Assembly: GCA_024278215.1 (NCBI GenBank)
Contig: JAJRTR010000127.1
Coordinates: forward strand, 1 to 16,820
Length of the DNA stretch: 16,820 bases
Reading direction: 5' to 3'
From: a bacterium
GTDB lineage: Bacteria > UBP15 > UBA6099 > JAJRTR01
Shown here piece by piece: positions 1,772 through 14,555 of this stretch (the first letter of the stretch is position 1; each line of letters opens with the position of its first letter). The notes under the pieces were generated by a model. The model was not told the origin of the DNA. It did not search any database and saw nothing but the letters and a program-made list of their open reading frames with translations. A program made the translations under genes and the position numbers.

Positions 1772-1794
1772 CCCGCATTGGTGAAATATGCGGG
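1772..1794 (-). repeat. Dispersed palindromic repeat, copy A
   Basis: CCCGCAT (1772-1778) and ATGCGGG (1788-1794) form a perfect 7-bp stem around a 9-nt loop. Read on the minus strand the loop is ATTTCACCA, matching copies B and C in both stem and loop. It lies in the convergent gap. Confidence 0.75.
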
Positions 1795-1956
1795 ATAAAA
1801 ACCGTTTTCACGAAAAACATGATCATGCGAGGTACGGTGACCCGCCCTTGCGCATTTGCAAGTGTGACATGATATTGGTGAAACATAGGCAACAGGGGCA
1901 TTCCGGGCCGCGCGCCGGAGTTCATGGAGAAAGGATGTCGGGGGTGACTATCAGAA

Positions 1957-1976
1957 TAAGGTGGATTTGCACCTTA
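1957..1976 (-). terminator. Terminator-like hairpin after the minus-strand TPR gene
   Basis: TAAGGTG (1957-1963) and CACCTTA (1970-1976) are perfectly complementary around a 6-nt loop, 39 nt beyond the stop of the minus-strand gene ending at 2016. On the minus strand the stem leads into TTCTGATAG, only weakly T-rich. Confidence 0.4.
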
Positions 1977-1982
1977 ACTAAG

Positions 1983-2000
1983 CAGTATAGCCATATTTCA
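1983..2000 (+). repeat. Probable degenerate copy D of the dispersed repeat
   Basis: CAGTATAGC followed directly by CATATTTCA matches the left part of copy B (8552-8572), which has the same two 9-mers separated by three extra bases, CCG. Those three bases belong to the stem, so this copy cannot form the hairpin. It ends 15 nt before the stop of the minus-strand TPR gene. Confidence 0.4.
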
Positions 2001-2015
2001 TGTTTATCAAACAAC

Positions 2016-2954
2016 TCACGGTTCGACGGTTTGCGGGTTGATGCGCGTGGGTTTGCCGTGCAGGAGTTTATCACCGATCAGGTCTTCTTCCGACTCGTCG
2101 TTTTTTATCTTGCTCATGCCGCCCTTGACGAGTATCTTCATGCCGCCTTTCTGGAAACCGTGTTCGTCGACAATAGGCACTGTGCCGTAGTCGCGCACGA
2201 GTTTCGGACTCCGGATATCGGCTTCTTCGCGGAGCATGGCGGTGAAGACACTGTCGGGGTAGTACTTCTGTATGTAGTCGGTATAGAGAACCTGTTTGTC
2301 AGGTTTGTTGAGCAGTCCGTAGGCCCTGATTATCTGGTAGATGAGTTTATCGTTGTCGGGTGATTGTGGGTCGAGCTTGATGGCTTTCTGGTTCCATTTG
2401 ATGGAGTGTTCGTACCACGCTTTTTTGAAGTAGGCGTCTGCGAGCCTGAGCATGGCGATGCGATGTTCGGGACGATCTTTTAGGATAGCGAGCTGGTTGT
2501 TTATAATCTTGTCGTAGTCGACTTTTATTTCAGCGGGAGCACGCCATTTCTTTTTCATGATATTCGGGAGCTTTTCCGACGACCGGCGTTCGATATCGAT
2601 TACCTGCCGCACTCTTGAACCGGAGTCGCGCTCTGCGGCGGAAATCTCAGCGAGCATCTGGTATGCGCATAAATCGCCGACACGGGCAGTCCTGCCCGGT
2701 TCGGTTTTCGACATGGCGGCTGTCGAACTTGCGGGGCCGACTTCTGTGATGTGGGCCAGGCCGATCTTCGTGCCCTGGCGCTGCACTACGAGGATGTCGC
2801 CCTGCTCGAACCCCTGGTTCATGCCTGCGTCGAGGACCAGTGAACCGTCGATTCTGATGCTCGATATCTTCGCTGTCTGGATATCCTGGGCACCCGTATA
2901 AGCAGCGCAGAGAATGAAACCCAACAGAACCGCAAATGTAATTGTTTTTCTCAT
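2016..2954 (-). CDS. Exported protein with N-terminal beta-domain and TPR-like repeats
   Basis: From ATG 2954 the product is 312 residues with a classical signal peptide (MRKTITFAVLLGFILCAAYTGA, cleavage near residue 22), so it is exported. Residues about 28-98 look like a small beta-rich domain (SSIRIDGSLVLDAG, GFEQGDILVVQRQGTKIG, RVGDLCAYQ), the pattern found in FlgT-C-like and related envelope proteins. Residues about 160-240 contain TPR-like helices (RIAMLRLADAYFKKAWYEHSI, AIKLDP). The C-terminus is charged. An in-frame ATG at 2972 adds six residues (MVENHI) ahead of the basic n-region; neither start has a strong Shine-Dalgarno, and I chose 2954 for the signal peptide. It is transcribed alone, divergent from the iron-sulfur gene. 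Function unknown; envelope scaffold is inference. Confidence 0.8.
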   Translation of the reverse strand: MRKTITFAVLLGFILCAAYTGAQDIQTAKISSIRIDGSLVLDAGMNQGFEQGDILVVQRQGTKIGLAHITEVGPASSTAAMSKTEPGRTARVGDLCAYQMLAEISAAERDSGSRVRQVIDIERRSSEKLPNIMKKKWRAPAEIKVDYDKIINNQLAILKDRPEHRIAMLRLADAYFKKAWYEHSIKWNQKAIKLDPQSPDNDKLIYQIIRAYGLLNKPDKQVLYTDYIQKYYPDSVFTAMLREEADIRSPKLVRDYGTVPIVDEHGFQKGGMKILVKGGMSKIKNDESEEDLIGDKLLHGKPTRINPQTVEP

Positions 2955-3050
2955 AATGTGGTTTTCTACCATTTAGAAGTTCCGTCCTGCCGTAACTTTT
3001 CTTTCTTCCAAAGAAATAACTCAAGACGGTTAATAATTTTTCACGAATCA

Positions 3051-3056
3051 ATTATA
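3051..3056 (-). promoter_or_regulatory. Candidate -10 element for the exported TPR gene
   Basis: The minus strand reads a perfect TATAAT here, about 97 nt before the start codon. No good -35 sits 16-18 nt upstream; that position falls in the TAGC-A9-GCTA tract at 3063-3079, whose nine-T run on the minus strand may act as an UP-like element. Call rests on the -10 alone. Confidence 0.35.
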
Positions 3057-12349: not shown

Positions 12350-12452
12350 TGCTCCGCAATAACAAAACGAACCCGGTATAATGATAAAAAGTGTAGTATT
12401 CAAGCGATATTTTGGCATTCATGAAATTTACTGCAAAATTATTAAAGATAAG

Positions 12453-12481
12453 TTGACAATATTGCGCTAATGTATTATAAT
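12453..12481 (+). promoter_or_regulatory. Consensus sigma-70 promoter of dnaK
   Basis: TTGACA (12453-12458) and TATAAT (12476-12481) match consensus at all 12 positions with the optimal 17-nt spacer. Initiation near 12488 gives a leader of about 68 nt. No CIRCE (TTAGCACTC-N9-GAGTGCTAA), HAIR or sigma-32-type sequence is visible between 12350 and 12555. Confidence 0.8.
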
Positions 12482-12555
12482 CTTCTGTGGAAGCAAGGAA
12501 ATTATTGGGCTGTTAACATTAAGGTCCATTATCACAAATTGTTGGAGGTAGGATT

Positions 12556-14406
12556 ATGAGCAAGATAATCGGAATTGATCTTGGAACAACAAATTCATGC
12601 GTCGCCGTCATCGAGGGCGGCGAGCCGGTAGTAATACCCAATGCAGAGGGCGGGCGCACGACACCGTCTGTGGCCGCTTTTACGAAGGAAGGCGAACGGC
12701 TGGTGGGACAGGCTGCAAAACGCCAGGCCGTCACCAACCCGGACAACACTGTTATGTCCATCAAGCGCTATATGGGCCGCGACCATAAAGTCAAGATGAA
12801 CGGTAAGGACTACTCGCCACAGGAAGTTTCCGCGATGATACTGCAGAAACTGAAGGAAGAAGCCGAGTCGTATCTCGGCGGAAAAGTGACCCAGGCGGTT
12901 ATTACCGTCCCGGCATATTTCGAGGACAGCCAGAGGCAGGCGACAAAAGACGCGGGCCGCATCGCGGGTCTTGAAGTCTTGCGGATCATCAACGAGCCGA
13001 CCGCGGCCGCGCTGGCTTTCGGAATTGATAAAGACAAGGACCAGACTGTTCTGGTATATGATCTGGGCGGCGGCACATTCGATGTCTCAGTGCTTGACAT
13101 CGGAGACGGAGTAATCGAAGTAAAAGCCACTGCGGGCAACAACATGCTTGGCGGCGACGACTTCGACCAGCGGATCGTCGACTGGATGATCACCGAGTTC
13201 AAAAAGGACCAGGGTATCGACCTGAGCAAAGACCGCATGGCGCTTCAGAGACTCAAAGAAGCGGCTGAAAAGGCGAAGATCGAGCTTTCAGGACGCACCG
13301 AAACGGGGATCAACCTGCCCTTTGTCACAGCCGACTCCAGTGGTCCCAAACACCTCGACCTGACGCTGTCAAGGGCCGAATTCAACAAGATGACCGACGA
13401 CCTCGTGCAGAAAACGCTGGGGCCCATCAAGCAGGCGATGAACGATGCTGGACTTCAGCCGAGCCAGATTGACCAGATACTGCTCGTGGGTGGTTCGACG
13501 CGCATTCCGGCAGTCCAGGAACTCGTGGAAAAAGTCACAGGTAAAAAAGCGAATAAAGGTATTAACCCGGACGAAGTCGTCGCATTAGGCGCGGCGATTC
13601 AGGCGGGTGTTCTCGGCGGAGATGTTAAAGACGTTCTTCTTCTCGACGTAACGCCTCTTTCCCTCGGTATCGAGACACTCGGCGGCGTGTTTACCAAGCT
13701 TATCGAGCGCAACACGACGATTCCCACGCGCAAGAGCGAAGTCTTCTCGACGGCGGCGGAAAACCAGACGAGTGTCGAGATTCATGTGCTCCAGGGTGAG
13801 CGCGAGATGGCCGCATACAATAAAACGCTCGGCAAGTTCCAGCTTGTCGGCATACCGCCGGCCCCGCGCGGCGTCCCGAAGATCGAGGTTACTTTCGACA
13901 TCGACGCCAACGGCATTGTGAACGTATCCGCTAAGGACACCGCCACAAACAAAGAGCAGAAGATCACCATCACCGCATCCAGCAACCTCACCAAGGAAGA
14001 TATCGACAATATGGTGAAAGAAGCCGAGGCAAACGCGGAGGAAGACAAAAGAAAACGCGAAGAAGCCGACGCTCGCAACAATGCGGATCAGCTTGTATAC
14101 CAGACGGAAAAAACGGTTTCCGAGCATGGCGACAAGCTGTCGGATGATGACAAGAAGAACATCCAGGATGCACTGGACAAAACCAGGAAGGCGCTGGAAG
14201 GTTCAGACATCGAAGCGATCAAGCAGGCATCCGACGAACTCATGCAGGCGAGCCATAAGCTTGCGCAGGTGATGTATGAAGCGGCTTCGACCGGACAACC
14301 GGGCGGAGAAACCGGTCCCGAAGGTGCACCGGCCGGCGGCGATGCCGGAGCAGCCGGCGACGATGTTGTCGACGCCGAGTATGAAGACGTAAGCGACGAT
14401 AAATAA
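12556..14406 (+). CDS. dnaK: Molecular chaperone DnaK (Hsp70)
   Basis: ATP-driven chaperone that binds exposed hydrophobic segments of client proteins; partners are the GrpE and DnaJ encoded next. The 616 residues show the full family pattern: phosphate loop [12 protein letters not shown] (5-16), [20 protein letters not shown] (116-134), [12 protein letters not shown] (145-156), DLGGGTFD (169-176), LVGGSTRIP, the [14 protein letters not shown] linker and the substrate-binding domain. A lid and a Gly/Ala-rich tail ending EDVSDDK follow. Between RYMGRD (71-76) and SPQEVSA (87-93) it lacks the roughly 23-25-residue insertion of E. coli-type DnaK and so resembles B. subtilis DnaK. N196 is at the position of E. 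coli T199, as in many bacteria. Start ATG 12556 with GGAGG at 12544-12548. First gene of the chaperone cluster, with a consensus promoter. Confidence 0.98.
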
Positions 14407-14421
14407 TATCGTCTTCGAGGG

Positions 14422-14442
14422 GGTCCGGCTGTTTTCCGGACC
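14422..14442 (+). terminator. Terminator-like hairpin after dnaK
   Basis: GGTCCGG (14422-14428) and CCGGACC (14436-14442) form a perfect 7-bp stem with a 7-nt loop, 16 nt after the dnaK stop. The following TGTGTGTT is only partly T-rich, so partial read-through into grpE is plausible. Confidence 0.45.
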
Positions 14443-14461
14443 TGTGTGTTATCGACAATCC

Positions 14462-14555
14462 GCGTGAATTTCTCGGGGACACGACCTGGATTCACTTTAA
14501 CCCGCATATTTCACTAATGCGGGTTAATCCCGGAACGTGTCCCCGAAATTTACGC
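14462..14555 (+). repeat. Nested palindromic element containing repeat copy C
   Basis: The outer arms 14462-14483 and 14536-14555 pair over 20 bp with one G-T wobble and a 2-nt bulge; their core is CGGGGACACG/CGTGTCCCCG. Inside, TTAACCCGCAT (14497-14507) and ATGCGGGTTAA (14517-14527) form a perfect 11-bp stem with loop ATTTCACTA. This is the third copy of the dispersed palindrome, here embedded in an unrelated hairpin. No target-site duplication or open frame is seen. A non-autonomous mobile element or REP-like unit is possible; this is inference. Confidence 0.75.

Follow-up and report, generated by a model that had tools for sequence, protein, structure and literature searches.

What kind of element is a short palindrome that recurs three times, with its loop conserved, in a single stretch of bacterial DNA? 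The stretch (hereafter the window) comprises 16,820 nucleotides, positions 1 to 16,820 of the forward strand of contig JAJRTR010000127.1 in assembly GCA_024278215.1, from a bacterium of the GTDB lineage UBP15; UBA6099; JAJRTR01. A first-pass annotation made from the letters alone had placed palindromes at 1772-1794 (minus strand; copy 1), 8560-8583 (plus; copy 2) and 14501-14523 (plus; copy 3), and these coordinates are borne out: the core pattern CCGCATATTTCACN{0,6}ATGCGG matches the window exactly three times, whereas 200 dinucleotide shuffles gave no match, so that the chance expectation is 0. The palindromes are very probably the left tips, in most cases solo remnants, of a family of non-autonomous miniature inverted-repeat transposable elements (MITEs) bearing the terminal inverted repeats (TIRs) of the IS1380 family. 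Four observations carry this reading: the identity of the TIR with the ends of intact IS1380 elements, direct target-site duplications (TSDs), an occupied site that can be compared with its empty paralogues, and discrete size classes.

From palindrome to miniature element

Counted over both strands of the genome (4.55 Mb, 207 contigs), exact matches to the core pattern number 107, rising to 309 when up to three mismatches are allowed; the same pattern reversed, which served as the control, gave 0 in each case. The annotation's expectation of many copies per genome is thus confirmed, as is its view of a recognised, mobilised, high-copy unit. In a search of 98 genomes for copies in close relatives, the exact palindrome was found in just 2, its own and one of the same order (1 copy), and the family is therefore large in its own genome yet taxonomically local. 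The intergenic placement seen in the window also holds more widely: on a heuristic map of open reading frames (ORFs), 14 of 98 full or solo copies fall inside a long ORF, though the share of these loci taken up by ORFs is about 0.8. Such avoidance of genes is expected of tolerated insertions.

In many copies the sequence to the right of the palindrome is conserved for a further 150-175 bp. A complete element measures about 175 or 200 bp and consists of a TSD, CCCGCATATTTCACCAATGCGGG, a hairpin-rich non-coding body, CCGGATTTCTTTGTGAGAAATCCGGG and a second TSD. The body runs AAATCGGGAGAATGCC ... GGCGTTATCCCGATTTT and folds on itself (z -6.2), and the right end, read on the other strand, starts CCCGGATTTCTCAC, which repeats the left end CCCGCATATTTCAC imperfectly. 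A search with a 185-nt full copy returned 40 scored relatives and one short match among 385 candidates. The family is dispersed and multi-copy, spans lengths of 23-207 bp and contains no transposase gene. By class, the exact copies comprise 32 full elements, 19 left ends with body and 47 solos. The bare stem-loop that had been described is thus real as a stem-loop, but about one third of the exact copies have it as the left end of the larger MITE. Right ends are harder to count: the figure of 217 right-end palindromes is an overcount, as the right-end pattern matches its own reverse complement at three mismatches, and the automatic test for solo right ends is contaminated for the same reason. 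Inspection by eye left few genuine solo right ends, for example L194 (TTAA on both sides) and L181.

This structure accounts for the loop. Its core ATTTCAC makes up the TIR's inner half and is conserved for that reason, while the 3' arm ATGCGGG is the mirror image of the outer tip CCCGCAT: a TIR left facing its partner's tip gives just this stem-loop. The annotation was right that the conservation of the loop exceeds what a bare terminator needs, and its suggestion of a protein-binding site holds in a narrow sense, in that the loop belongs to what would be the transposase-binding end. The alternative that the palindrome is a structured RNA or an intrinsic terminator, selected as RNA, draws on the favourable folding of the stem (window copies, z -3.1 to -5.4). 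Across 132 copies, however, two-sided compensatory change occurs in 0 of the 7 core stem pairs, and the bases outside the stem vary as direct and not inverted repeats. An Rfam search of the window gave no match, and none of the three window copies is among its terminator-like sites. Selection as RNA is accordingly very improbable; both the structured RNA that the annotation had allowed for and the intrinsic terminator (a GC stem followed by a T run) were rejected.

Terminal repeats shared with IS1380

The 18-mer TIR AACCCGCATATTTCACCA was searched across 84,980 species genomes. It is present in Hydrogenedentota, Gammaproteobacteria (including Thioalkalivibrio denitrificans), Pseudanabaena, Opitutia, Aegiribacteria and others, often in inverted pairs about 20-330 bp apart whose interiors are unrelated; viral contigs searched with the same 18-mer gave no match. 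The pairs in other phyla are other MITEs that share this TIR. Two loci illustrate the range: a Gammaproteobacteria metagenome-assembled genome (MAG) has two IS1380-type TIRs back to back (L099, 1161-1200), and a Hydrogenedentota MAG has an inverted TIR pair about 75 bp across (L080, 1889-1962).

Within genomes bearing AACCCGCATATTTCACCA, IS1380 transposases were sought by means of PF13701. At L126, TTAACCCGGATATCTCACCA stands at both ends of a 1763-bp IS1380 element with the TSD TTAA; at L127 the TIR bounds an intact IS1380 with zero mismatches, and L125 and L128 have related ends. The transposases of all four loci are named IS1380 by NCBIfam (NF033539, E 1e-97 to 1e-122). Among the IS1380 loci surveyed in 386 genomes, L292, L293, L294, L295 and L297 share this end type: L295 has it at both ends with the duplication TTAG/TTAG, and L293, which comes from the window's own order, has TTAACCCGGATATTTCACCA upstream of the IS1380 transposase gene. 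The bounding of intact IS1380 transposase genes by CCCGCATATTTCACCA shows this sequence to be the TIR of IS1380-family insertion sequences (ISs).

The MITEs share with IS1380 ISs (NF033539 / PF13701; compare L126, L293 and L295) the terminal sequence NTAN followed by CCCG[CG]ATATTTCACCA, together with a 4-bp duplication. Unlike those ISs, which are about 1.5-1.8 kb long, they lack a transposase gene and measure about 175-200 bp or 23 bp, and each of their ends has an extra inner half-palindrome that gives a hairpin. A parallel can also be drawn with eukaryotic piggyBac elements, for which IS1380 serves as outgroup (PMC10813416): they too have a 4-bp TTAA duplication and TIRs starting with CCC, whereas the present family is bacterial and minimal, and its NTAN target is less strict. 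The literature search, which left most subscription papers outside its reach, turned up no paper linking IS1380 to such MITEs. The family is a new one, of IS1380 type and with unusually many precise 23-bp remnants, of a kind of element already known.

Target duplications and the origin of the 23-bp form

The flanks provide the second line of evidence, and the statistics rest on 132-134 fetched copies, among which full copies are over-represented (30 loci were fetched using the MITE query). The 4 bases directly outside the left-end C and the right-end G repeat directly, as in ATAA/ATAA, TTAG/TTAG, CTAT/CTAT and TTAC/TTAC. The duplication is of the type NTAN, often TTAA, CTAA, TTAT or TTAG. Of the 52 full copies, 20 have a perfect direct 4-bp duplication, as do 15 of the 59 solos; when right flanks were shuffled among copies 5000 times, the means were 4.4 and 5.0, respectively, with a maximum of 12 in both classes. 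Where the tetramer is not its own reverse complement, the outer bases match directly in 15 full and 12 solo copies and inversely in 0 and 1. Outer bases that are direct and not inverted indicate a duplication made by transposition, as opposed to an extended stem.

Measured from the left duplication to the matching right one, element lengths fall into two peaks, one at 23 bp (18 copies, with one more at 24) and one at 174-207 bp (18 copies), well above the shuffled expectations of 5.6 and 4.0. Between them lie single cases at 25, 36, 45 and 52 bp. The last three (L208, TTAA; L245, GTAG; L204, TTAT) retain both ends and the duplication, and are internal deletions. Most copies, those in the window included, are likewise reduced forms, and the commonest is the 23-bp palindrome between direct 4-bp duplications.

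How might the reduced forms arise? An IS1380 transposase, supplied in trans, would bind at the TIR CCCGCATATTTCACCA, make the cuts and place the element for the most part in intergenic positions. Each MITE end also forms its own small hairpin. The body would then be lost, most simply by replication slippage from the CGGG of the left hairpin to the CGGG at the end of the element. Because the left hairpin and the element both end in CGGG, a single slippage event could delete the body, with the 23-bp palindrome left flanked by both duplications.

A second possibility is that the IS1380 transposase inserts the 23-bp palindrome directly, so that the palindrome is an extremely small transposable element and no deletion product. 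The sharpness of the 23-bp class with its direct 4-bp duplications would suit this, as would the clean 23-bp insertion into another repeat at copy 3 (described below), the very short TIR-TIR elements of other genomes (such as the back-to-back TIRs of L099) and the excess of solos over full copies among exact matches (about 47 against 32). However, the 23-mer at its right end agrees with the TIR over the outermost 7 bp only, the intermediate deletions of 36, 45 and 52 bp exist, and the CGGG microhomology explains the junction. The loop subtypes CA and AA, moreover, stand at 36:15 in solos and 38:13 in full copies, equal proportions of the kind expected of derivatives. Direct transposition of the 23-mer is thus unlikely, and the deletion route is judged the likelier. 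A specific version, in which a micro-element with the outer 7 bp of the TIR as its right end may have moved in hairpin form and solos for that reason outnumber full MITEs, is somewhat more doubtful.

The duplications also bear on the annotation's leading guess, a repetitive extragenic palindromic (REP) sequence spread by a REP-associated tyrosine transposase (RAYT) of the Y1 type. TIRs combined with 4-bp target duplications are typical of a DDE transposon and unexpected under RAYT. The family does resemble REP/REPIN-RAYT systems in its hundreds of short extragenic palindromes, and the genome has six weak matches to Y1_Tnp (PF01797; L031-L036), two of them with a palindrome nearby. Those palindromes stand on one side only, and none of the Y1 genes is bracketed by copies. 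Every RAYT gene is reported to lie between two REPs in inverted orientation that carry a GT(A/G)G head (PMC2817692). Here no such head adjoins the palindrome, whose flank is instead NTAN plus C and varies as a direct repeat. A RAYT origin is therefore barely credible and was rejected. No cognate repeat was recognised for the six Y1_Tnp matches at L031-L036.

The IS1380-type MITE has counterparts among other bacterial MITEs. Like Chunjie (Geobacter), Correia, RUP, MITEAba12 and MITEPye1, it is short, non-coding, bounded by TIRs and flanked by duplications, and like them it is mostly intergenic, foldable and represented by many truncated copies (PMC10969869; PMC11578231). It differs from those families in having IS1380 as its partner and a precise 23-bp palindrome as its prevailing remnant. 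Truncated MITEs can come to resemble REPs, as reported for QMITE of Coxiella burnetii (PMC10969869); truncated QMITE copies have lost their duplications and TIRs, whereas a quarter of the 23-bp remnants described here keep both 4-bp duplications. An abundant REP-like repeat is hereby identified as the reduced ends of an IS1380-type MITE, with a concrete route from a MITE to a bare 23-bp palindrome that mimics a regulatory hairpin or a REP. Since AACCCGCATATTTCACCA occurs across unrelated bacterial groups, the TIR could serve as a key for similar palindromes elsewhere, and many unexplained short palindromes of environmental genomes could be assigned with it.

Several points weigh against the MITE reading. 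First, just 25% of the solos and 38% of the full copies retain a perfect 4-bp duplication, and two of the three window copies are without one: copy 1 is flanked by TTAT and GTAG, with no recognisable duplication, and none was seen at copy 2. Second, the genome's own assembly (95% complete, 207 contigs) yielded no intact IS1380 gene and no match to NF033539; the sole trace of IS1380 is a degenerate C-terminal PF13701 fragment with a stop. The IS1380 source may have been lost, or may be missing from a fragmentary assembly, as can befall a multi-copy IS. Third, the mobility of the MITE is deduced from sequence comparison, and transposition itself was not observed.

The window copies and neighbouring repeats

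Copy 3 (14501..14523, plus strand) lies in the dnaK/grpE gap. It matches the core and is classed as a solo 23-bp palindrome, CCCGCATATTTCACTAATGCGGG, and it sits within a member of a second repeat family (14462..14555, no strand assigned) whose inverted arms, GGGGACACG ... CGTGTCCCC, are split by a 27-bp insertion (23 bp plus 4 bp). Empty copies of the second repeat have the middle CCGGAATTAAAGGGCAAATTCC, with a single TTAA in nearly all; among 40 scored genome matches to the uninterrupted repeat, nearly all have one ATTAA at the insertion point. The filled window site reads CCGGGATTAA-CCCGCATTAGTGAAATATGCGGG-TTAAAGTGAATCC. Comparison of filled and empty paralogous sites places the left TSD TTAA at 14497..14500 and the right TSD TTAA at 14524..14527 (both plus strand). 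The difference between filled and empty sites is 23 bp and a second TTAA, which marks copy 3 as a precise insertion.

Copy 1 (1772..1794, minus strand), an exact core match classed as solo, is the 23-bp palindrome CCCGCATATTTCACCAATGCGGG, the left MITE tip, and lies in a convergent gap between a gene resembling a tetratricopeptide repeat (TPR) lipoprotein gene and the gene at 2016-2972 (minus strand). Copy 2, in the divergent ychF/priA gap, extends over 8560..8594 (plus strand): a left MITE tip that matches the core with a loop 2 nt longer (CACCCCAATGCGG) is followed by CAAAAATCG, the start of the body as compared by eye with full copies. The right part of the MITE has been lost and the first body bases have been kept.

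Other features were noted in passing. The second dispersed repeat is about 50-60 bp long, with inverted GGGGACACG / CATGTCCCC arms around the conserved middle CCGGAATTAAAGGGCAAATTCC; 40 of its 69 genome candidates were scored (window 14462-14555; L261-L290). A third, longer repeat starts GAGCCAATTGCAAAATT(A/C)TG(T/A)TTC... and has 90 distinct copies within the fetched loci alone. It was seen at L037 (around 1300), L014, L019, L026 and many other loci of the same genome, and several palindromes lie inside or adjoin it. At window positions 1861-1890 (plus strand), ATTGGTGAAACAT is similar to the inner portion of the IS1380-type TIR; it may be a decayed end, or the likeness may be due to chance. 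Finally, a sigma-70-like promoter lies upstream of dnaK at 12453-12481, with a perfect 12/12 match (TTGACA, 17 nt, TATAAT).

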